From positions 2,480,001 through 2,544,000 of the forward strand of contig CP079215.1 in NCBI GenBank assembly GCA_019316985.1: a stretch of 64,000 nt of DNA, in the 5' to 3' direction. Every line of letters starts with the position of its first letter. Positions within the stretch are counted from its first letter, which is position 1. The notes under the pieces were generated by a model, which was not told where the DNA came from, did no database searches, and saw only the letters and a list, made by a program, of their open reading frames with translations. The stretch is from Paraniabella defluvii. Its GTDB lineage: Bacteria; Bacteroidota; Bacteroidia; Chitinophagales; Chitinophagaceae. The position numbers and the translations under genes are program-made. Shown piece by piece: positions 2,585-14,754 of this stretch.

Positions 2585-3480
2585 CTAGCTCTCCATCAAC
2601 CTTTCCACAAACGGAACAATCGTTGCTTCTCCCGCATCTACCCAGTGCATACCGGCCTGCCTTTTAAACCAGGTCATCTGGCGTTTGGCATACCGGCGGG
2701 TATTTTGCTTTATTTGATCTATGGCCTCCTGGCGGGAAATTGTGCCGTCAAAGTAATCAAACAGCTCCCGGTAGCCTACAGTCTGTAACGCATTGAGATG
2801 CCGGTAGGGGAGTAACGCCCGTGCTTCTTCTTCCTGCCCGGCCTGCATCATCACCTCTACACGCAAATTGATTCTTTCGTAGAGCTTTTCGCGGGGTAAT
2901 TCGAGCCCTGCCTGTATCATGCGGAATGGGCGGGGTGTTTATCCGAACTGCGGAAACTGATAATAGATTGGCCGGTAGCCAGCACCACTTCCAGCGCCCG
3001 CATCATACGCTGGGGATTCTGCATTTCGCCGGTTTCGGCAAAAGACGATCATGCTGCAGCAGCTGATCCTGTAGCCAGCTGATACCGTTTGCTTCATACC
3101 CGCCGATTACCTGCGCTCTTACAGATGCCGCCACCTGGGGTATAGCATCCAGCCCTTCTGTCAGCGCTTTAATATATAAGCCCGTACCGCCGGTAACTAC
3201 AATGGTATCGTGCCGGGAAAAAGATCCTGCAAAAGATTCAGGGCATAGCGCTCGTACCAGGCCGCGTTAATATCATCCTGAATATGATGGGAGGCAATAA
3301 AATAGTGGGGTACCTGGCTGAGCTCTGCAACCGATGGCCGGGCTACGCCGATATTCATTTCTTTGTAGCACTGGCGGCTGTCGGCCGATAGGATAACTGT
3401 ATTGAAATGCCGGGCTACTTCAATGGCATGCACTGTTTTACCCACAGCCGTTGGCCCTGCAATAACAATGATCGATTTGA
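2585..3480 (-). CDS. miaA: tRNA dimethylallyltransferase MiaA (frame-broken)
   Basis: MiaA transfers a dimethylallyl group to N6 of A37 in tRNAs reading UNN codons. The N-terminal P-loop AGPTAVGKT is readable on the minus strand near 3445, followed by ILSADSRQCYKEMNIGVARPS, the family substrate-binding segment, and PHYFIASHHIQDDINAAWY. Breaks near 3210, 3050 and 2940 lead to the C-terminal half (LPREKLYERINLRVE, YRHLNALQTVGYRELFDY, TRRYAKRQMTWFKR) ending at TAG 2585. No ATG is visible in frame just upstream of the P-loop (TAA lies 11 codons before), so the start is either lost to a break or a rare codon. Length about 299 residues is normal. Confidence 0.9.
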
Positions 3481-3505
3481 TATTTGAAATTTAGGATTTC
3501 CGGAT

Positions 3506-4064
3506 TTAATCTTCTTCGTCCTGGTACTCATCGGCCGACTCTTCAATACCCATATCCTCGCCTTCCTCGTTCTTTTCGTTAAAGCCTTCTGCACCCCGGG
3601 TAAGATCGTATTTCTCTTCAATATCGGCAAATTTATCGCCTAATAGTCCTTTTGTGCCATATTGTTTAGGCCCGATGCCTTCGCTTCTCACCACTGCCGG
3701 GTATTCCTGGCGGCTATCTGCCTCTTTGGATACATTGATCAGCTCGATCAAAAAGTTCCAAACCTTATGAAAATCGTAGGTATAGGTAAAGCGCTGGTTG
3801 GTATTTTTACTTCTGAGCCAATAGTGGTTTCAGCCATGATCAGGGCTCTACCCTGTATTTTTATCATATTTCTCCAGGAAATTTCCCGGCCCTGCTGCCA
3901 GTTGTCATTACTGCGATAAAATGTAGCCTGGTGCTTGTTGTCGAACGCGTAGGCTTTCAAAATCGCTTCATGCAGCTGCAAAAGTTTTGCGTATGCTTGA
4001 TCACTACGTCACGGTAAATACTGTCGTCCTCCTCAAAATAAACTCTGAATTTTAGAATTGCCAT
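3506..4064 (-). CDS. pRiA4b ORF-3-like / IS1096 TnpR passenger-family protein (frame-broken)
   Basis: ATG at 4064 opens MAILKFRVYFEEDDSIYRDV. After a break at about 3990 it continues LLQLHEAILKAYAFDNKHQA and TFYRSNDNWQQGREIS, then MAETTIGSEV. After a further break near 3750 come ELINVSKEADSRQEYPAV and GPKQYGTKGLLGDKFADIEE, with a Glu/Asp-rich tail. This matches the plasmid pRiA4b ORF-3-like family, widespread as a single-copy chromosomal gene in Bacteroidota and also called an IS1096 passenger TnpR family protein. Despite that name there are no transposon ends here. Function unknown. It is convergent with nothing and sits 181 bp from the tracrRNA terminator. Confidence 0.8.
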
Positions 4065-4245
4065 ACGGCGAATTTACGGAAATGTGCGGAGATGGGCGGT
4101 AGAGGTAATGAGTGAATTTTTGGCTGAACCGTTTTCAGGTCCGGTAATGAAACTTTAATACGGCAATCGGTATAATTCAAATAGATAGAATAGGACCGCC
4201 TGCTGTTAAGCCGGGACAAAAGCGTTTTAGGTTATTGATAGACAC

Positions 4246-4269
4246 AAAAAAGGCGAGTTGCCCCACCTT
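4246..4269 (-). terminator. Rho-independent terminator of tracrRNA
   Basis: Minus strand: AAGGTGGG, loop GCAA, CTCGCCTT, then a T run to 4246. The stem is 8 bp (two G-U wobbles) closed by a GNRA tetraloop, immediately followed by U residues. It sits about 30 nt after the anti-repeat, where type II tracrRNAs end. Confidence 0.85.
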
Positions 4270-4317
4270 AAATGTTTTCACAACGGAATCATCCTTATTG
4301 TGAATTGCTTTCAATTG

Positions 4318-4325
4318 CAAATATA
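4318..4325 (-). promoter_or_regulatory. Possible tracrRNA -7 box TATATTTG overlapping the anti-repeat
   Basis: Minus strand reads TATATTTG, an exact TAnnTTTG match, with AATG rather than TTTG 19 bp upstream. Transcription from it would begin inside the anti-repeat and leave only about 14-17 nt of pairing. This may be coincidence in an A/T-rich stretch. Confidence 0.3.
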
Positions 4326-4341
4326 AATAAATGAGTGAACT

Positions 4342-4367
4342 TGCCATTACGGGTTTCCGTAATGGCA
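4342..4367. promoter_or_regulatory. Perfect 11-bp inverted repeat between tracrRNA and cas9
   Basis: TGCCATTACGG, loop GTTT, CCGTAATGGCA: an uninterrupted 11-bp stem with a 4-nt loop. It ends 42 bp before the cas9 ATG and starts 17 bp from the anti-repeat box. No T run follows on the plus strand (ACGAGTATTTT), so it is a poor terminator. It could be an operator, a hairpin in the cas9 5' UTR, or the 5' end of a long tracrRNA form. Confidence 0.8.
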
Positions 4368-4409
4368 CGAGTATTTTAAGTAACTTACACATTTCAAAAG
4401 CATTTAGGT

Positions 4410-7400
4410 ATGACTAAGACGATACTTGGACTTGATTTGGGAACGAACTCAATAGGATGGGCGCTTATCCAGAACGATTTCGAAAATAAAGAAGGAAAAA
4501 TACTCGGAATGGGCAGCCGGATTATTCCAATGACACAGGATATTAAAGATGAGTTCGGGAAAGGGAATTCTGTATCCCAAACTGCAGATAGGACAAGATT
4601 CAGAAGTACACGCCGTCTGCGCGAACGTCATTTGCTGCGCCGTTCCCGCCTGCACCGGGTATTGAATGTGCTTGGTTTTTTACCGGAGCATTACGCGAAG
4701 GAGCTTGATTTTGAAAACAGGTTGGGGCAGTTTATGGCGGAAACGGAGCCTAAAATTGCCTGGAAGAAAAATGAAAAAGAAAAATTTGAATTTCTTTTTC
4801 AGCAATCTTTCCATGAAATGCTGGAAGATTTTAAAGCCAACGGTCAGGATATTAAAATACCTTATGACTGGACGATTTATTATCTGCGTAAAAAAGCCAT
4901 TGCCCATAAAATAAGCAAAGAAGAATTGGCTTGGCTTGTTTTGAATTTTAACCAAAAACGCGGGTATTACCAGTTGCGTGGTGATGAAGAGGAAGAAAAG
5001 GCGAATAAGTTGGTAGAATTTTATTCCTTAAAAGTGGTGGACGTGGTTCCTGATCCAGAGATTAACAGGAAAGGAGAGATATGGTATTCTATACATTTGG
5101 AAAACGGGTGGATTTACAGGCGATCGAGTAAAATTGATTTATCTGACTGGAATAATAAAATCAGGGATTTTATTGTAACGACAGAACTAAACGATGACGG
5201 CTCTGTAAAAACGGATAAAGAAGGGAACGAAAGAAGAAGTTTTCGAGCGCCTGGCGAGGAAGACTGGACATTGATTAAGAAGAAAACCGAACAAGATATT
5301 GAACATTCCCGCAAAACCGTCGGCACGTATATATACGAAAACTTACTGCTCAATCCTAAGCAAAAAATAAAAGGTAAGTTAGTCCGTACAATAGAACGTA
5401 AGTTTTATAAGGAAGAACTGGAAACTATACTTAGAAAACAAATTGAACTACAGCCGGAATTATTTACCGACGATTTATACAGTGATTGCGTCAGGGAATT
5501 ATATCGAAATAATGAAGTGCATCAAATACAATTGAGTAAACGGGACTTTGTGCATTTGTTTGTGAATGATATTATTTTTTATCAGCGTCCTTTAAAAAGC
5601 CAAAAGTCATCCATCGGCAATTGCGCCCTGGAGTACCGCGTTTATAAAGTAAAAGGTAAAGACGGAAAAGAATTTGATAAGAAGGAATACCTGAAAGCCA
5701 TTCCGAAATCGCATCCGTTATATCAGGAATTTCGCATTTGGCAGTGGATGTATAACCTGAAAATTTTTAGACGGGAAGATGAGGCGGATGTTACGCAAAC
5801 TTATATTAATAGTGATGAAGATAGGGCTCGCTTATTTGATTTTCTGATGCAACAAAAAGAGGTTGATCAAAAAATATTATCAAATATTTATTGGAACCAC
5901 AGGGGTTGAAGGGAAAAATTTTGACGACGGAAATTTCAAAATACCGTTGGAATTACGTGTATGATAACGAAAAGGATGAATCGAAAAAATATCCGATGAA
6001 CGAAACAGGGTATGAGTTACGGAGAAGATTGGCCAAAGTTGAAAATGTTCCCAATGATTTTCTGACTGTGGAAAAAGAACTTCAATTATGGCATTTGATC
6101 TATTCGGTTACAGATAAAGTTGAATTTGAAAAAGCATTGCACTCATTTGCTGCCAAATATAATTTAGACGAAAAATCTTTTTTCGAAAATTTCAGAAAGT
6201 TTCCGCCGTTTAAAAGTGAATACGGCTCTTTTTCTGAAAAGGCGATTAAAAAACTGTTGCCCTTAATGCGTACTGGCAAATATTGGAATTGGAAAAATAT
6301 AGACCTGTCAACGCAAAAAAAAATTGCCAATATAATAAATGGAGAGTTTGACGAAACCATCAAAAATCGGGTACGTGAGAAAGCAGCTCAACATCAATTA
6401 CAAACGGAAACCGATTTTCACGGATTACCGCTATGGCTGGCACAATATATAGTTTATGACCGGCATTCAGAAGCTGAAATTACGGGCAAATGGCAATCAA
6501 TAGAAGAGCTTAAAAAATATCTGGAAGAATTCAAACAACACTCATTACGTAATCCGATTGTTGAGCAGGTAGTAATGGAAACTTTGCGTGTGGTGGGAGA
6601 TATTTGGGAGAAATACGGCAACGGTAAAAAGATTTTTTCAATGAAATTCACGTAGAACTTGGCCGCGAAATGCGTAATACTGCCGAAGAGAGAAAACGAC
6701 TGACTGCTATCGTTTCGGATAATGAAGCGACCAACTTAAGATTGAAAGAACTTTTGATTGAGTTAAAAGAAAATTCAGACGGTAAACTGAATGTTGAAAA
6801 TGTACGTCCTCATTCACCAATGCAACAGGAAGCGTTGAAAATATTTGAAGACGGGGCTTTGAGTACCTACGATGTGCCGGATGATATTTTAAAGATCAGC
6901 AAAACAGCACAACCATCCAAATCTGAATTGCAGCGATACAAGTTGTGGCTGGAACAGCGTTACCAGTCGCCTTACACAGGCAAAATAATTCCGTTGGGTA
7001 AACTATTTACATCTGAATATGAAATAGAACATATCATTCCGCAGTCACGATATTTTGATGATAGCTTTAGCAATAAAATTATTTGTGAATCGGCAGTTAA
7101 TAAACTGAAGGATAAACAACTGGGGTTTGCATTTATAAAAAAACATGCGGGAGAAATTGTACAGGATGGTGATAAACAATTTAAAGTGCTTACAGAATCG
7201 GAGTATAAAGATTTTGTCAAAAATCATTATTCCAAAAACCAATCCAAGAAAAGAAAACTTTTACTTGAAGAAATTCCTGATGCCATGATTGAGCGGCAAC
7301 TAAATGATACACGTTACACTAGTAGATTTATTTCTAATATATTGTCAAATATTGTACGTAGTGAGGACGGAAAGGATGAGGAATTCAGAAGTAAAAATGT

Positions 7401-8807
7401 ACTGCCCGGGAATGGTAAGATCACCCAAACACTTCGTCAGGATTGGGGATTGAACGATATTTGGAATGAATTGATCTTGCCAAGATTTGAAAGGATGAAT
7501 CAGTTGACTGATTCCAATCAGTTTACTTCTAAAAATACAGAGGGAAAAACGATCCCGGCTATTCCATTAAAGTATTCAAAAGGTTTTCAGAAGAAGCGGA
7601 TTGACCACCGTCATCACGCATTGGATGCTTTAGTGATTGCCTGTGCAACCAGGGAGCATATTCAATATCTGAACAATGAAAATGCCAAATCTCAAAAATA
7701 TCACCTTCAGATGGGGCTTGCACAAAAACTTCGTAAAATGGAAACGATTGAAGTATCCAAGTGGAAGAAGGCTGATAATGATGTTTGGATCAAGTGTGAA
7801 GAGAAAATAGAAAAGCGAGTACCAAAAGACTATTTAAAACCATGGGAAACCTTTACGCAAGATACCAAAGCTCAATTGGGCAAAATAGTGGTGAGCTTTA
7901 AACAAAACATTCGTGTTATCAACAAAACGAATAATAAATATGAGAAGTTTGTAGAAAAAAATGGAAAAATAAGCAGGAATTTGTTTCTCAAACCAAAGGA
8001 GATAGTTGGGCTATCCGCAAACCGATGCATAAGGACACTGTTTCCGGAAGAATTGATTTACCACGGATAAAAGTTCCTAAAGGAAAGATGCTTACGGCAA
8101 CAAGAAAGAGTGTTGATTGGTCATTTAACTTGAAAACCATTGAATCTATAACTGATACAGGCATTCAAAAGATATTGAAAAATTACCTCAATTTCAAAGG
8201 CAATAAACCAGAGATTGCATTTTCACCGGAAGGATTAGAGGAAATGAATAAAAGTATAGCTCAATTTAATGATGGTAAGGCGCATCAGCCAATTTATAAA
8301 GCCCGCATTTTTGAGTTGGGAAGCAAGTTCGCGCTTGGAGAAACAGGCAATAAGAAGCATAAATATGTTGAAGCGGCAAAAGGGACGAATCTGTTCTTTG
8401 CTGTTTATGCAGATAATAATGGAAAAAGATCCTATGATACAATTCCATTGAATATAGTTGTCGAAAGACAAAAGCAGGGTTTACGCTCTGTGCCTGATAC
8501 TAATGAAAAAGGACACCATTTGTTATTCTACTTATCTCCTAATGATTTGGTGTATGTACCTATTGAAGACGAAAAGGATGCTGCTGATGGAATAGATTTC
8601 GGTAAGTTATCAAAAGAGCAAGTAAACAGGATTTATAAAATTATTAGTTTCACTGGGAACCGGTTATATGCTGTTCCCGTATCTGTAGCAACCGTTATTG
8701 TGAATAAACTTGAATATACACAATTGAATAAAATCGAATTTATAAAAGATAAAGAGCTGTGTTTCAAACTTGACGTGGATAGGTTAGGTAACATTACAAA
8801 AGCATAA
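4410..8807 (+). CDS. cas9: Type II-C CRISPR effector nuclease Cas9 (three frame breaks)
   Basis: RNA-guided DNA endonuclease. RuvC-I is ILGLDLGTNSIGWAL with catalytic Asp9. An Arg-rich bridge helix follows (RSTRRLRERHLLRRSRLHR, about residues 67-85). RuvC-II is EIHVELGRE near residue 750, HNH is YEIEHIIPQSRYFDDSFSNK near 870 with His and Asn present, RuvC-III is RIDHRHHALDALVIA near 1064. The C-terminal region is the wedge/PAM-interacting part. Breaks: about 5870 (A6 run), 6630 (T6 run, inside RuvC-II) and 7983 (TTT). One added base in each restores frame, giving about 1466 residues, normal for Bacteroidota II-C Cas9. All catalytic residues I can check are intact. It heads a tightly packed plus-strand gene run and is divergent from the tracrRNA. 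Confidence 0.97.
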
Positions 8808-8810
8808 CGC

Positions 8811-9405
8811 ATGCTTCTTTTCTCAACATATTATCACATCTACAACCACGCCAATGGCGATGATAACCTGTTTCGGGAAGAAGAAAATTACAATTTCTTT
8901 AAAAGAAATATCATCAGCATATTGACCCAATAGCTGAAACCATTGCCTGGTGCCTGATGCCGAACCATTTTCATCTGCTGGTAAAAATAAAAAGCGAAGA
9001 AGCGGTGGCATCAACTTTTCTAAAGTTCGAAACTTTAGAAAAGTTTGAGCAGCGCTGCACCTTTTAAGTAAACAGTTTTCTAATTTTTTCAGCAGTTACA
9101 CTCAATCATTTAATAAAGTTTATAAGAGGCGTGGCTCTTTATTTATAAAGAATTTTAAAAGGAAGGAGGTGACCGACGATGCTTATTTGCGTAGTCTGAT
9201 TCTGTACATCCATCTCAACCCTGTTAAACATGGGTTCGTAAAAGAAATGAGCAGTTGGCCCTGGAACTCCTGGAAGACATTCCCCAATATCTATCCTGGG
9301 TTAACAGAACAGCTATTTACAAATCTCGAACAATACAATACCTTACATCAAGAAAAGCAACTCTATTTCGAGGAATATAAGAAACTGGAGAACGATCTAA
9401 TTTAA
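8811..9405 (+). CDS. Y1 (HUH) transposase, RayT/IS200-like, inside the cas gene run (frame-broken)
   Basis: ATG at 8811, only 3 bp after the cas9 stop: YYHIYNHANGDDNLFREEENY, then a break near 8905, then IAWCLMPNHFHLLVKI with the His-x-His metal site of HUH nucleases. A further frame gives FSSYTQSFNKVYKRRGSLF with the probable catalytic Tyr, then DDAYLRSLILYIHLNPVKHG. These are hallmarks of the Y1 transposase / REP-associated tyrosine transposase superfamily, which nicks single-stranded hairpin DNA. Joined length about 199 residues, normal for stand-alone RayT-type genes. It ends 5 bp before cas1, so it is probably co-transcribed with the cas genes. I see no IS200 ends or target duplication. 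Whether it acts in adaptation is unknown. Confidence 0.85.
9013..9045. repeat. 15-bp perfect palindrome inside the transposase gene
   Basis: AACTTTTCTAAAGTT, 3-nt spacer CGA, AACTTTAGAAAAGTT. It sits in the variable linker between the HUH motif and the Tyr region. Such hairpins are the substrate type of Y1 transposases. Confidence 0.85.
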
Positions 9406-9410
9406 ACAAT

Positions 9411-10316
9411 ATGATCAAACGCACCCTGTACTTTGGTAACCCTGCCTACCTGAAAACCAAAAATGAACAGTTATTGGTGGAGCTGGCTGATACCGGTGAA
9501 ACAAAAACCGCGGCTATCGAAGATATAGGAGTATTAATACTAGATCATCAACAGATCACCATCACGCACAGTGTTATTGCCAAGCTGCTGGCGAACAACG
9601 TAGCGCTGATTACCTGCGATGACATCCATCATCCCACTGGCTTAATGCTGAATTTAGACGGTCATACCCTGCAGAGCCAGCGCTTCCAGGCGCAGCTGGA
9701 TGCTTCCGTACCCTTAAAAAAGCAATTATGGCAGCAAACGGTGGCGGCGAAAATTATCAACCAGGCCAACCTGCTGGCGCAGTATCGTATTGCTAATAAA
9801 ACCCTGCTCAACCTCGCAGCCAAAGTAAAAAGTGGCGACAGCGACAACTGTGAGGCACAGGCCGCTAATTATTACTGGAAAAATGTGTTCCCGCTGTTCC
9901 CGGGGTTTAAACGCTTCAGGAAGGCGAGCCGCCCAACAATTTATTAAACTATGGCTATGCCATTTTACGAGCCATAGTGGCGCGCAACCTGGTGGGGAGC
10001 GGGTTACTGCCAACCCTGGGCATTTTTCACCGCAATCAATACAATGCCTATTGCCTGGCCGATGATATGATGGAGCCTTACCGGCCTTATGTAGATAAAG
10101 TGGTTTACGAAATTGTGCGCATGAACGGGCATTTTTGGAGCTGACGCCATCCATGAAACAGCAGCTCTTAGGTATCCCGGCTATGGATGTGAGCACAGAT
10201 GGGGAAAAAGTCCTTTAATGAATGCAGTACAGCGCACCACCGCAAGCCTGGCCAAATGTTTTGAAGGAAACAGCCGCAAGCTGCTGTATCCTGTCATGCC
10301 TCCTTCATTCGTTTAA
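9411..10316 (+). CDS. cas1: CRISPR integrase subunit Cas1, type II (three frame breaks)
   Basis: Cas1 with Cas2 captures and integrates new spacers. The N-terminal beta domain starts [18 protein letters not shown]; the helical domain carries the metal-site Glu in [14 protein letters not shown] (near residue 149), His in [14 protein letters not shown] and an acidic patch in [13 protein letters not shown]. Breaks near 9917, 10130 (T5 run) and 10210 (A5 run) are each repaired by one base, giving 302 residues ending at TAA 10316. The length and the [11 protein letters not shown] opening are typical of type II Cas1. It lies 5 bp after the transposase and 3 bp before cas2, so it belongs to the same transcript. 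Confidence 0.95.
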
Positions 10317-10657
<341 letters not shown>

Positions 10658-10673
10658 ATAAACCAAACTAACT

Positions 10674-11533
10674 ATGAAGCGATCAGACTTTATCAGGGTA
10701 TTGCTGGCTTTTTAGGCTTCGCGGTTTTGCCGGCCGGGATGGTAAGGCAGTATCGCCGGGTATACCTGCTGCAAAGCTTTGTAAGGGGTTTCCGTTTTAA
10801 TAATGGCCCGCAGCTATTGGAGAAGATGCTAGAAGGGGATATGCTGGAGTTGGTGCGCGAGCCGTATAACACATTTGATGACAGAGCCATCGCACTGCAT
10901 TTCAATCAACATAAGATCGGCTATATACCCCGGGAAGATAATGATATGCTTAGCAAAATTAATGGATGCGGAAGTTGTTCAGTTGAATGCAGAAATAACC
11001 CATTTGAATAAGGCAGCCAAAGCCTGGGAAAATGTGCATATTGCGGTATATGTGCTGAAGGAAACAACAGGCGATCTGCCGGCTGCGGCTACTTATTTAA
11101 CCCAGCTGGAGACGCCTCACTACCGCACCGTTAAGCTATCTGCAGAAAGAGTGGTACATGTATATTTTTATGCGGGGATGAAGAAGAAGTGCTGGATGCT
11201 GGCAGCTTTTATGATACGTTGATGATTGCCGCCGGGAACAACAATATGCCTGATATACTGCATAAAGATTTTCAATCGGGTTTTCAGTTTCAAAAGATGA
11301 TTGAAGAGGGAAGGGTAGTGATTAACCGGAACCGGCTGCCCGGAGACCTTAAAGGGGACAGCCTGACTGAGGCGTTATCGAAAAACGTTATCGCGCTGGA
11401 TAGCCTCTTTGATGAACAGGGATATGTAGTGGCTAATGTGAATCGCGCAGCCGGCCTTTCGGGTCGTATTGAAAAAGTAGTGAGCACTTTCGATCGGTCG
11501 GGAAGACTGTTTTATGAGGTGCAGTTTCTATAA
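10674..11533 (+). CDS. HIRAN-domain protein with hydrophobic N-terminus, adjacent to CRISPR array (frame-broken)
   Basis: ATG at 10674 begins MKRSDFIRVLLAF, and after an early break GFLGFAVLPAG, so the N-terminus looks like a signal or anchor. Residues about 30-105 form a HIRAN domain: SFVRGFRFNNGPQLL, EGDMLELVREPYNTFDDRAI, HKIGYIPREDNDM. HIRAN domains bind DNA 3' ends or damaged DNA in helicases such as HLTF, and also occur alone. The C-terminal 170 residues (DILHKDFQSGFQF, YVVANVNRAAGLSG) are unrecognised. Breaks near 10697 and 11170 each need one added base; one at about 10960 needs one removed. The joined product has about 286 residues. The start is 16 bp after cas2 and the gene ends before the array terminator, so it is likely the last gene of the cas transcript. 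Confidence 0.75.
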
Positions 11534-11550
11534 AATGCGCTAACGGGAAC

Positions 11551-11580
11551 AAAAAAACGGGCTGGAAGGCCCGTTTTTTT
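11551..11580. terminator. Bidirectional rho-independent terminator between HIRAN gene and array
   Basis: AAAAAAACGGGC, 6-nt loop, GCCCGTTTTTTT: a perfect 12-bp stem with A and T runs on the two flanks. It can stop the cas/HIRAN transcript (plus) and the pre-crRNA transcript (minus). Confidence 0.9.
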
Positions 11581-11631
11581 ATCCTGCTGACAACCTGAAA
11601 TCCTTTACTGTTGCGGCTTTGGTCGAAACGA
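11581..11631. other. Cas-proximal flank of the CRISPR array (candidate integration-side leader)
   Basis: 51 bp between the terminator and the first repeat. CTTTGGTC at 11617-11624 is complementary to GACCAAAG in the first repeat (11641-11648), so an 8-bp hairpin can form across the array edge. If the degenerate repeat marks the old end of the array (13344), new spacers would enter here. Confidence 0.4.
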
Positions 11632-13344
11632 GTTGTCAAAGACCAAAGGTAATTTGAAATTGAAAGCAATTCACAACTTCCATTCCTTTGCTGGTTTAAA
11701 GCCAGGTGTTGTCAAAGACCAAAGGTAATTTGAAATTGAAAGCAATTCACAACAAATGCTGCCTACAATAGCGAAGCTGATCAGTTGTCAAAGACCAAAG
11801 GTAATTTGAAATTGAAAGCAATTCACAACATAATAGTTGTGCTTGTTGCATTATGATAGTTGTCAAAGACCAAAGGTAATTTGAAATTGAAAGCAATTCA
11901 CAACCCAGTAACCGTAACAAACGATGGATCACTTGTTGTCAAAGACCAAAGGTAATTTGAAATTGAAAGCAATTCACAACTTCTTTTAGGTAATATTCAA
12001 GAGACTTTTTGTTGTCAAAGACCAAAGGTAATTTGAAATTGAAAGCAATTCACAACTAAGATGACCCTGGCCGATTTCTACGTAAAGTTGTCAAAGACCA
12101 AAGGTAATTTGAAATTGAAAGCAATTCACAACACAAAATAAGGACGATGTAGAAAAGAACATGTTGTCAAAGACCAAAGGTAATTTGAAATTGAAAGCAA
12201 TTCACAACACAAAACAAAAGCATGAGGACGCTAAAGCCGTTGTCAAAGACCAAAGGTAATTTGAAATTGAAAGCAATTCACAACAGCGGAAACGCGTATA
12301 TCTTCACACAGTACGTTGTCAAAGACCAAAGGTAATTTGAAATTGAAAGCAATTCACAACAAAATACACCAGACGCTATCCTTTGCAATAGTTGTCAAAG
12401 ACCAAAGGTAATTTGAAATTGAAAGCAATTCACAACGGTGAAACACTAATCAAAACAGGTAGTTAGTTGTCAAAGACCAAAGGTAATTTGAAATTGAAAG
12501 CAATTCACAACAGAGAGTACGAAGCTAAAACATTGTGCATTGTTGTCAAAGACCAAAGGTAATTTGAAATTGAAAGCAATTCACAACCTCCCGTTCGCAG
12601 ATTCACCGTAATAGGCTGTTGTCAAAGACCAAAGGTAATTTGAAATTGAAAGCAATTCACAACTGAATGTCGCCTTACTTATGTCGAATATGAGTTGTCA
12701 AAGACCAAAGGTAATTTGAAATTGAAAGCAATTCACAACCTATTGCATCAAGGGTATCGGCTACGATCTGTTGTCAAAGACCAAAGGTAATTTGAAATTG
12801 AAAGCAATTCACAACAAGAGATTAGGTGAGGTGCTTGGTTACTGCGTTGTCAAAGACCAAAGGTAATTTGAAATTGAAAGCAATTCACAACTTCATCACC
12901 GGGATGGACACTTTGAGTCAAGTTGTCAAAGACCAAAGGTAATTTGAAATTGAAAGCAATTCACAACCTTGTTTAAGTTCTTTCTTAGGTTATCCAGTTG
13001 TCAAAGACCAAAGGTAATTTGAAATCGAAAGCAATTCACAACTGGGCAAAAGAACACTGCAACTTCTTGCCAGTTGTCAAAGACCAAAGGTAATTTGAAA
13101 TTGAAAGCAATTCACAACGGTGTGCTGGCGATACTTACCGCCGTTACCGTTGTCAAAGACCAAAGGTAATTTGAAATTGAAAGCAATTCACAACCGCTGC
13201 TCATAGCTTATAATTAATTGATTGTTGTCAAAGACCAAAGGTAATTTGAAATTGAAAGCAATTCACAACTAAATTCGTCTGAGTTCATTTCGAATGAGGT
13301 TGTCAAAGACCAAAGGTAATTTGAAATTGAAAGCAATTTACAAC
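11632..13344 (-). CRISPR. Type II-C CRISPR array, 23 repeats of 46 bp and 22 spacers of 29-30 bp
   Basis: Repeats start at 11632, 11708, 11784, 11859, 11935, 12011, 12087, 12163, 12239, 12315, 12391, 12466, 12542, 12618, 12694, 12770, 12846, 12922, 12997, 13073, 13149, 13224 and 13299. Plus-strand repeats begin GTTGTCAAAGACCAAAGGTA and end GCAATTCACAAC. All look identical except the one at 12997 (one T to C at repeat position 30) and the last at 13299 (one C to T at position 41). Spacers are all different; I saw none matching the rest of the window. The tracrRNA anti-repeat fixes transcription on the minus strand: the crRNA repeat is GUUGUGAAUUGCUUUCAAUU..., so the 13299 copy is first in the transcript. 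Short apparent reading frames here are only the repeat translated. Confidence 0.99.
13311..13318 (-). promoter_or_regulatory. In-repeat -7 box TACCTTTG (shown for the 13299 repeat; present in all 23)
   Basis: In crRNA orientation each repeat has TACCTTTG at positions 27-34, an exact TAnnTTTG match, with GTTG at positions 1-4 (22-bp spacing rather than the usual 19). Transcription would start near the repeat/spacer junction. Confidence 0.4.
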
Positions 13345-13435
13345 GCCATCCAACAGGCACCCGTTGTGTTTTATGGTAACCGCGCTAATGCATGAACGTA
13401 TATATTTTTGCACAAATCCAAAAAATGAGAAACGC

Positions 13436-14061
13436 TTAAAGTCTCTTCCTTTCCTTTTTCAATATAGACCGTACTGCTTTTTTATAGTTCCTTTCATAAC
13501 TGCCGTCATCGGTTTGATTGTCGTAAACAACAACACCCGAATCTTTAACAGTGCCATCTTTTATTGTATAAAAGCCGGTCCAGATTTGACCCGACATTAC
13601 ATAACTGGTTACCAGGTTATGCTCCGGCACGTATGTGGGGTTTTTGATGGTTTCAAAGCCTTTGATCTTGGACAGTTGGTGCTGAACGGTATCAACCAGG
13701 TATAAATAATAAGTCTGGTTGCTTCTCACATCCGAAATGTTTTGTACTAAAATATCCGGTATTGTATCATTGTTAAAGTCAGCGAACTCGACATTCCGGG
13801 TTTGGCTAAAAACAGAATCAGAAAAAATGAGGGAATATTGCCCGCCTGATAACCGGCTTACGGTAAACAGTGTATTCGGAATGTTTTCATCTTTATTGCC
13901 TGAATCAATAACCGCTAAGGTTATCCGGTAATTTTATAGGGAGACGCCGAGTCGAAATTAATTGTAGATGCATGATTTAAAGAATAGGTGTTTTGCCCCG
14001 AGCTGGTCACCGCTGTTAGCAGTAATAGGATAGGGGCTATAAAGGACCAGTATTTTAGCAT
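13436..14061 (-). CDS. Secreted protein with an FG-GAP/VCBS-like motif (one frame break)
   Basis: ATG at 14061 begins MLKYWSFIAPILLLLTAVTS followed by SGQNTYS, a signal peptide with probable cleavage after SSG. After a break near 13935 the frame continues LAVIDSGNKDENIPN, EFADFNNDTIPDILVQN (an Asp-rich calcium-type loop as in FG-GAP/VCBS repeats) and SDVRSNQTYYLYLVD. It ends with a basic tail KAVRSILKKERKRL. The layout resembles XAC2610-related secreted proteins, recalled from similar sequences. Length about 208 residues. Function unknown. It lies 92 bp beyond the array on the same strand as the pre-crRNA. Confidence 0.6.
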
Positions 14062-14161
14062 ACTTTTTCTGTTCTTAACCTTGTTGAGTCATATTGCTGT
14101 CACGCCTGCCGGTTTAAAGATATTCAATATGCACTGTTTTTCAATCCCAATACTACTCCGG

Positions 14162-14754
14162 TTATGCTTCTGCCGGCCCTGTCTTAACTTTTCCTGCCCG
14201 CACGTAACGGCCAATAATTACACCGGTTGACGTTATAATATGATCGGATAAGGTGTAGGATTTCGGAAGCGCGCCTGTATCAAAAAGCCGCTTACCCTTA
14301 CCAAGAAGAATTGGATGTATTTTAAGTCTTAATTCGTCCACCAGGTCGTTACCCAGTAAGAGGTGTACTAATTCGCTGCTACCCCATACCTGTATATCGG
14401 GTCCGGCTGATTGTTTGAGTTGCCGAATATCTGCAACCGTTGTAATAAAACGGGTGTTATTCCATTCAGATTCATTCCGGGTTGCAGATAATACATATTT
14501 TTCTCCCTCGTTAATGCCTGGCCAATAGTCTTTGTGTAGCGGCCAGTACTGCTCCCATATCTCAAAAGTTTTTCTTCCTAAAAGATAGGATGCGGGTTGC
14601 AACTCTTCCTGAACCACCTTGCCATATGCTTCGTCGCCATATGGCGCCGTCCAGCCACCGTATTTAAAATCCCCGATTCGTCTTCCTTCGGGCCGCCTGG
14701 AGCCTGAATAACACCATCCAGCGTAAGCATAGACAAAACAATGATCTTTCTCAT
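14162..14754 (-). CDS. Dihydrofolate reductase-family protein (RibD C-terminal-like), frame-broken
   Basis: The start ATG at 14754 gives MRKIIVLSMLTLDGVIQAPG, the opening typical of the stand-alone DHFR-like/RibD-C reductases of Bacteroidota. After a break near 14680 follow FKYGGWTAPYGDEAYG, SYLLGRKTFEIWEQYWP, QVWGSSELVHLLLGNDLVDE and IHPILLGKGKRLF, all family hallmarks; LLGRKTF and VWGSS line the NADPH site. About 197 residues. The true substrate is unknown. These are not folate enzymes as a rule. A longer in-frame extension upstream exists only in a different reading register and is ignored. Confidence 0.85.

Follow-up and report, generated by a model that had tools for sequence, protein, structure and literature searches.

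A gene for a Y1 transposase-like protein recurs in the type II-C CRISPR-cas operons of the Bacteroidia, on the strand of the cas genes and most often between cas9 and cas1. We describe it from a 64,000-nucleotide stretch of the Paraniabella defluvii genome (Chitinophagaceae; assembly GCA_019316985.1, contig CP079215.1, positions 2,480,001 to 2,544,000 of the forward strand), called the window below, where it stands in a cas9–cas1–cas2 locus of presumed type II-C. The best reading of the sequence comparisons is that this gene, Y1, would be a recurrent and frequently exchanged accessory gene of the II-C adaptation operon, coding for a predicted nuclease of the HUH type.

Y1 recurs beside cas1

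We used a family sample (294 genomes, 92 loci with a type II cas1) and a class-wide sample (335 genomes, 69 such loci). Y1 lay on the cas strand, in or beside the operon, at 13 of the 92 family loci and at 17 of the 69 class-wide loci, the latter spread over 13 families of the sample. Among the top 13 matches to the C-terminal piece of the window's protein in the 294 family genomes (E ≤8.1e-26, window included), 12 stood beside a type II cas1, the sole exception being that of genome G188 (G and L numbers are our own handles for genomes and loci). A profile built from the cas-linked Y1 proteins gave 76 matches in 58 of the 335 class genomes; 18 of these (16 loci, window included) fell within 1.5 kb of a same-strand type II cas1, where random placement in 4-Mb genomes would give an expectation of 0.015. 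Type II cas genes were also adjoined by 17 of the best 80 of 569 loci in a scan of named genomes, with Hydrotalea flava, Paenimyroides aquimaris and Belliella calami among the carriers, together with Reichenbachiella agariperforans, which has a fragmentary cas1.

Among the 42 carrier loci considered below are some whose Y1 is a relic, partial or broken (L071, L132, L180, L253, L292, L296, L309), and L277, which ends at a contig edge; L190 and L296 were kept even with Y1 more than 1.2 kb from cas1. We left out the minus-strand or distant Y1 of L099, L261 and L272 and, from the scan of named genomes, five loci whose genomes were in the count before (L167, L168, L169, L171, L208). The original prediction, made from the letters of the window, had taken Y1 for an established operon member rather than a recent insertion. 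This holds for the type of locus, of which Y1 is a recurrent same-strand member, but not for each lineage, given its scattered presence. L304 and L308 have long Cas1 frames, which showed no Y1 when inspected by eye for Cas1–Y1 fusions.

Position and packing of Y1

The usual site of Y1 is between cas9 and cas1; some copies lie between cas1 and cas2 (L208, which repeats L265; L211; L301) and a single one after cas2 (L228). In 21 of 35 copies upstream of cas1, Y1 ends at most 20 nt from the cas1 ATG or overlaps cas1 (gaps over about 340 nt are left out of the 35). No other extra gene family is as common around cas1 as Y1 (25 of 161 loci vs 9 for the next), and all 26 of its open reading frames (ORFs) there are on the cas strand. 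A same-strand gene no more than 60 bp away on each side was seen for 13 of 34 cas-linked Y1 genes vs 1 of 56 solitary ones, and the listed solitary relatives sit among unrelated genes.

Locus L268 has two different Y1 genes, one on each side of cas1, with more REP-like palindromes nearby. L124 has a Y1 gene of another subtype (NHLHGI motif) directly upstream of cas1 (5379–5948 in cas orientation), and L152 has one gene of each subtype.

The locus in the window

The features of the locus are as follows.

4250–4322, minus strand: putative trans-activating CRISPR RNA (tracrRNA), with an anti-repeat (4298–4322; inverted match to the array repeat, 96%) and a terminator hairpin (4269–4250; minus-strand terminator-like stem)
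4410–8807, plus strand: cas9 (type II), four frame pieces; TIGR01865 (E 7e-46 and 3e-55, two pieces), RuvC_III and HNH_4
8811–9405, plus strand: Y1/HUH transposase-like gene (TnpA_REP/RAYT-like; RAYT, REP-associated tyrosine transposase), three frame pieces; NF047646 and cas-linked relatives
9013–9045: perfect palindrome inside the Y1 gene, two 15-nt arms and a 3-nt loop; inverted-repeat search and folding
9411–10316, plus strand: cas1 (type II), several frame pieces, end approximate (from reading frames); TIGR03639 (E 5.6e-49 for 9411–9944, 7.4e-32 for 9911–10141)
10320–10616, plus strand: cas2; Pfam CRISPR_Cas2 (E 1.8e-16), PADLOC Cas2_II
about 10674–11533, plus strand: HIRAN-domain gene, frame pieces; Pfam HIRAN (E 8.8e-10), recurrent in other II-C operons
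11632–13344: CRISPR array, 23 repeats of 46 bp with spacers of 29–30 bp; repeat detection

The order tracrRNA (minus strand), cas9, Y1, cas1, cas2, HIRAN gene, array had been claimed beforehand, and profile and repeat searches found every element of it. The components of a type II CRISPR-Cas system (cas9, cas1, cas2, array and putative tracrRNA) are all present, the tracrRNA by its anti-repeat and terminator only; a minus-strand tracrRNA upstream of cas9 is plausible from these two elements. A search of 3000–14500 with Rfam gave no match at E 0.1. Scanned with PADLOC and NCBIfam, with no dedicated search and no placement of Cas9 on a reference tree, the operon pieces yielded neither Csn2 nor Cas4.

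The tight gaps, also part of the original prediction, were found to the base: 3 bp lie between the cas9 stop (TAA, last base 8807) and the Y1 start (ATG from 8811), and 5 bp between the Y1 stop (TAA, last base 9405) and the cas1 start (ATG from 9411), Y1 filling the 603-bp cas9–cas1 gap. Insertion ends are indeed not visible, the sole inverted repeat of at least 12 nt found in 8780–9460 being the one inside the Y1 gene (9013–9045). Y1 is present where it was predicted, but not as one open frame: it runs through three (8811–8930, 8903–9064 and 9049–9405), with the HUH and tyrosine motifs in separate pieces. The cas9, cas1 and HIRAN genes are split into pieces just as Y1 is, and the genome, one contig of 6.13 Mb, has a marker-gene completeness of only 72%. 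Because the neighbours are equally broken and the genome scores this low, the frame breaks in Y1 are likely indel errors of the assembly, from which an intact gene cannot be told from a pseudogene. The assembly looks rich in frameshifts, with numerous genes split across the first 18 kb of the window, and broken ORFs here should not be taken for pseudogenes.

The Y1 protein resembles TnpA_REP

The product of Y1 is likely a TnpA_REP/RAYT-like HUH nuclease acting on single-stranded DNA, judging by profile, structure and motif matches. The model for REP-associated tyrosine transposases, NF047646, matches the middle (E 2.6e-5) and C-terminal (E 2.3e-11) pieces of the window's protein and not the N-terminal piece; the C-terminal piece is 72–75% identical to the products of unbroken cas-linked genes in G119 and G237. 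All of eight cas-linked Y1 proteins matched NF047646 at E 0.001 or better. We use the name 'TnpA_REP-like' because that of L093 falls short of the model's cut-off (60.7 vs 80 bits, the only score shown among the eight). The HUH histidines and the catalytic tyrosine are invariant in the eight aligned proteins. The only match among Protein Data Bank sequences at E 0.01 was 4ER8, the E. coli TnpA_REP (HMMER E 3.9e-4), whose Tyr115 aligns with the tyrosine of the Y1 motif YIHLNP. The same structure was the best Foldseek match of the predicted fold (E 3.3e-7, TM 0.49/0.58; model pLDDT 87.6), with IS200 and IS608 transposases further down the list. PADLOC gave no match for the eight proteins. A phage family, phrog_18266, was matched weakly (E 1e-4).

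Y1 is thus like TnpA_REP/RAYT proteins in its best fold match, its only structure-database sequence match and its HUH and Y...NP motifs, and unlike them in being embedded in a cas operon. Two features point to different subclasses. The available part of PMC6006769 describes a palindrome inside tnpA as typical of TnpA_REP subclass 2.4 (RAYT group 4), which the REP-like palindrome of the cas-linked genes resembles. The tyrosine motif given there for 2.4 is YIxNNP, however, and Table 1 of that paper assigns the form YIHLNP of the cas-linked proteins to subclass 2.1. With TnpA of IS200/IS605 elements Y1 shares the HUH/Y1 fold; it differs in that neither subterminal hairpin ends flanking the gene nor multiple near-identical copies were found (Y1 is single copy in the window's genome at E 1e-8), and the 603-bp gap leaves no room for a TnpB beside it.

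A hairpin lies inside the Y1 gene

Folded as single-stranded DNA, the 53 nt around the palindrome reach −15.4 kcal/mol (z −6.0), and the searched palindrome pattern matches once, at 9013–9045, in the 6.13 Mb of the genome. A strong intragenic hairpin was present in 35 of 42 cas-linked Y1 ORFs (those of at least 120 amino acids, not the same set as the 42 carrier loci), vs 5 of 40 cas1 genes from the same loci and 19 of 60 solitary relatives (the first 60 of a longer list). In 35 of the 42 ORFs it was stronger than in all 40 synonymous-codon shuffles, while among cas1 controls 4 of the first 25 genes beat all of 20 shuffles. Since the hairpin beats synonymous shuffles, the protein sequence does not explain it, and the same shuffles rule out a chance hairpin. 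Thirty-one aligned hairpins have in common a 15-bp stem and a 3-nt loop, with 459 of 465 cells paired and two or more complementary pair types at 11 of the 15 stem positions; it is the variety of pair types that counts here, not the pairing percentage, because the 31 were chosen for having a hairpin.

The core palindrome, the only pattern searched in this comparison, occurs at a single place, inside a cas-linked Y1, in 6 of 10 family genomes. It has no match in the other four: G022 and G277, of the window's genus, lack Y1, G189 has a broken Y1 and G246 a palindrome of other sequence. Because the core is single-copy in the genomes that have it, the palindrome here is not a dispersed REP, and the six Chitinophagaceae genomes differ in this from known TnpA_REP/RAYT systems. 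Similar palindromes flank Y1 in some other loci, e.g. L085, L181 and L177. Rearranged copies break at the hairpin: those of L253 and L296 start at or just before it, and the half copy of L267 ends just after it.

Selection and exchange

Comparison of codons indicates that Y1 is under purifying selection. The ratio of nonsynonymous to synonymous substitution rates (dN/dS) was 0.08–0.18 in the 5 of 8 pairs that had a usable dS, of which only 'well below 1' is a safe reading, because synonymous sites are near saturation; dN of Y1 is of the same order as that of cas1 in the same pair. HUH and tyrosine motifs stand in one frame of at least 165 amino acids in 34 of the 42 carrier loci (32 by pattern, plus L256 and L282 read by eye, where the residue before HFH differs).

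Of 125 Y1 proteins placed in a tree, 25 form a clade (clade A, support 0.978) in which 22 genes are cas-linked, the closest relatives of the window's gene included; over 60 bootstraps, the best split keeps a mean of 18.6 of the 22 cas-linked Y1 together with 2.3 others. The remaining cas-linked Y1 are scattered elsewhere in the tree, making about nine groups in all by our own reading, some of them weakly supported. The comparison suggests that several Y1 lineages joined cas operons separately.

In the four pairs with the most similar Y1, Cas1 identity is 0.74–0.82 and Cas9 identity 0.24–0.31 (three pairs with data). By these identities, Y1 at the shortest range appears to keep company with Cas1 more than with Cas9, and more distant pairs go either way. 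Two loci of the window's genus, 87% identical in cas9 and 89% in cas1, differ in the presence of Y1: L073 (G277) has an 11-bp cas9–cas1 gap without it, and in L088 (G237) Y1 overlaps the cas1 start by 4 nt. Compared for an excision footprint, the two show no visible scar or duplication at the cas9–cas1 junction.

We also saw cas9 swapped in place: in the pairs L072/L081, L086/L097, L086/L103 and L278/L286, Cas1 is 90–94% identical and Cas9 24–32%. Other Cas1 pairs equally close keep their Cas9. Among close Cas1 pairs, Cas9 identity was below 40% in 232 of 308 without Y1, 72 of 89 discordant for Y1 and 6 of 9 with Y1 in both. Swapping of cas9 is reported for Flavobacteriales in the Extended Data Fig. 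9 legend and a methods passage of PMC12669027, and at the cas9–cas1 joint also in the accessible text of PMC10309648.

Explanations for Y1 in cas operons

We hold, tentatively and at a little under an even chance, that Y1 was recruited several times into Bacteroidia II-C operons, was passed on as a cassette and is an accessory of the adaptation module. As read from the comparison, a RAYT-like HUH gene would have been recruited repeatedly into type II-C cas operons and moved between loci as a cassette. Its packing suggests that it is read together with cas1 and cas2, and its family and motifs predict an HUH/tyrosine centre that cuts or joins single-stranded DNA at hairpins. Our guess is that Y1 might take part in making, trimming or capturing DNA, single-stranded or with overhangs, for use by Cas1–Cas2. 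II-C loci have neither Csn2 nor Cas4 for that prespacer task. The hairpin inside the gene would be a likely binding or cutting site of the protein itself, serving self-regulation or exchange of the cassette. In its fullest form the proposal makes Y1 an HUH nuclease dedicated to CRISPR, drawn more than once from RAYT-like genes and serving as a working part of spacer acquisition at between a seventh and a quarter of the II-C loci of Bacteroidia, where it would cut or ligate hairpin single-stranded DNA into Cas1–Cas2 prespacers; its own hairpin would tie the gene to the locus and let the cassette jump from one cas operon to another, and might drive exchange of cas9 at the cas9–cas1 joint. To this full form we give a small chance.

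Several observations weigh against an accessory role. Loci free of Y1 are the majority of II-C loci (131 of 173). Presence of Y1 is close to random on both the Cas1 and the Cas9 tree: it takes 30 changes on the Cas1 tree (40 carriers among 168; 500 shuffles, mean 36.0, minimum 30) and 23 on the Cas9 tree (29 carriers among 121; shuffles, mean 26.2, minimum 21). The idea that the Y1 phylogeny tracks that of Cas1 fails overall (clade A, Mantel r=0.14, p=0.20, n=21), and clade A Y1 distances are uncorrelated with those of Cas9 as well (r=−0.09, p=0.72, n=15); overall co-inheritance with Cas1 or with Cas9 is rejected, the distance tests having found neither. In one close Y1 pair, L166/L088, Cas9 (0.72) is more alike than Cas1 (0.50). 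The cas9–cas1 slot is also taken by unrelated genes. Crude gene calls gave solitary Y1 genes a same-strand neighbour upstream in 45 of 56 cases and downstream in 42 of 56; with both figures this high, it is tight packing, and not strand, that sets the cas-linked genes apart. About 8 of the 42 carrier loci have a broken, partial or contig-cut Y1, and that of L134 is shortened, yet counted among the 34 with both motifs. Finally, arrays of 28 loci with Y1 and 105 without are alike in repeat number, period and spread of spacer length (12 of the 28 and 51 of the 105, 63 in all, run off the end of the sequence taken). Given this likeness, Y1 is dispensable for having an array. Median Cas9 length was 1441 amino acids in carriers (n=29) and 1423 in the others (n=92; p=0.09), and we claim no difference.

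The scatter and the decay would be explained by a selfish, locus-tropic gene that spreads through the cas9–cas1 joint. Its HUH nuclease would cut its own hairpin or an empty cas9–cas1 junction, recombine through cas9 and cas1 homology arms, spread like a homing gene and decay where unneeded, with no gain for immunity. Y1 is scattered on the Cas1 and Cas9 trees and correlates overall with neither, and L088 and L073 form a clean presence/absence pair. The core palindrome, once per genome and inside the gene in 6 of 10 genomes, is missing from two genomes of the same genus without Y1; rearranged copies (L253, L296, L267) break at the hairpin, and broken copies exist. A homing gene, however, needs neither the common cas strand of all 26 ORFs nor the tight packing of many of them. 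Different Y1 lineages joined this operon independently, Y1 is under purifying selection, and loci without Y1 often exchange cas9 as well (232 of 308 close Cas1 pairs). We regard a selfish gene as unlikely, although worth serious consideration: repeated recruitment, tight packing and selection appear to speak more for a use to the locus.

Alternatively, the cas9–cas1 junction may be the joint at which cas9 modules are swapped, and small genes (Y1, nucleotidyltransferase-like, ATPase, HIRAN) may lodge there as passengers that the operon tolerates. This would suit the four Cas1 pairs at 0.90–0.94 with Cas9 at 0.24–0.32, swapping as described in the available text of PMC12669027 and PMC10309648, the other genes in the slot and the lack of a visible effect on arrays. 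It fits poorly with Y1 being by far the commonest occupant (25 of 161 loci vs 9), with one Y1 clade nearly confined to cas operons, with conserved catalytic motifs and low dN/dS, and with copies between cas1 and cas2, off the joint; we consider it rather improbable. The Y1 fold and HUH motif, together with IS200/IS608 structures in the fold list, could also be those of a recent chance insertion of IS200/IS605 type into this locus. There are no flanking inverted repeats, however, and almost no room for ends, and the gene is single copy in the genome at E 1e-8 with the same arrangement in several genera. A one-off event is excluded because Y1 recurs beside cas1 in other genomes, at the same place and strand, and we judge this explanation extremely improbable.

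Earlier work and significance

Zhang et al. are said to have surveyed II-C associated genes in Nature in 2024. To our knowledge, prespacer processing in II-C systems, which lack Csn2 and Cas4, is an open question. A recurrent predicted single-strand DNA nuclease beside cas1 is a named, testable candidate for this task. Hydrotalea flava CCUG 51397 (L168) is a carrier listed as a culture-collection strain, and matched loci with and without Y1 are at hand. The association would tie a domesticated transposase of obscure purpose to a defined pathway, with the hairpin as a candidate substrate for testing.

That known II-C operons are cas9–cas1–cas2, as the original prediction had it, proved too simple. 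The available parts of PMC13153721 and PMC12669027 describe accessory genes in II-C operons, e.g. PcrIIC1, and the legend of Fig. 6D in PMC10910872 (Altae-Tran et al. 2023) lists a 'Y1 Tpase' among putative CRISPR auxiliary genes. PcrIIC1 and the other accessory genes resemble Y1 in being extra genes within II-C cas operons; PcrIIC1, as described there, is a PIN-domain protein, whereas Y1 is a predicted HUH nuclease next to cas1. The 'Y1 Tpase' is likewise a Y1 transposase named as a CRISPR-linked gene, but the accessible text of PMC10910872 gives it neither subtype nor mechanism, and it may be the II-C gene described here. We therefore do not claim the first sight of a Y1–CRISPR association, given that listing; the passages and listings of the open literature searched contained no description of this cas9–Y1–cas1 arrangement.

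Other genes in II-C operons

A nucleotidyltransferase-like gene of ~160 amino acids (DUF2204/DUF6036, below cut-off) lies in the cas9–cas1 gap of 9 of 161 loci (L007, L079, L080, L112, L118, L149, L255, L264, L269), and a P-loop ATPase gene of ~390 amino acids in that of 5 of 161 (L259, L261 with ATPase_2, L277, L283, L296). A HIRAN-domain gene turns up repeatedly in II-C operons, either following cas2 or in the cas9–cas1 gap (L007, L088, L108, L110, L149, L166, L283, L307). It occurs together with Y1 in L166 and L307, in the order cas9–HIRAN–Y1–cas1–cas2, and in L088, where the HIRAN gene follows cas2.

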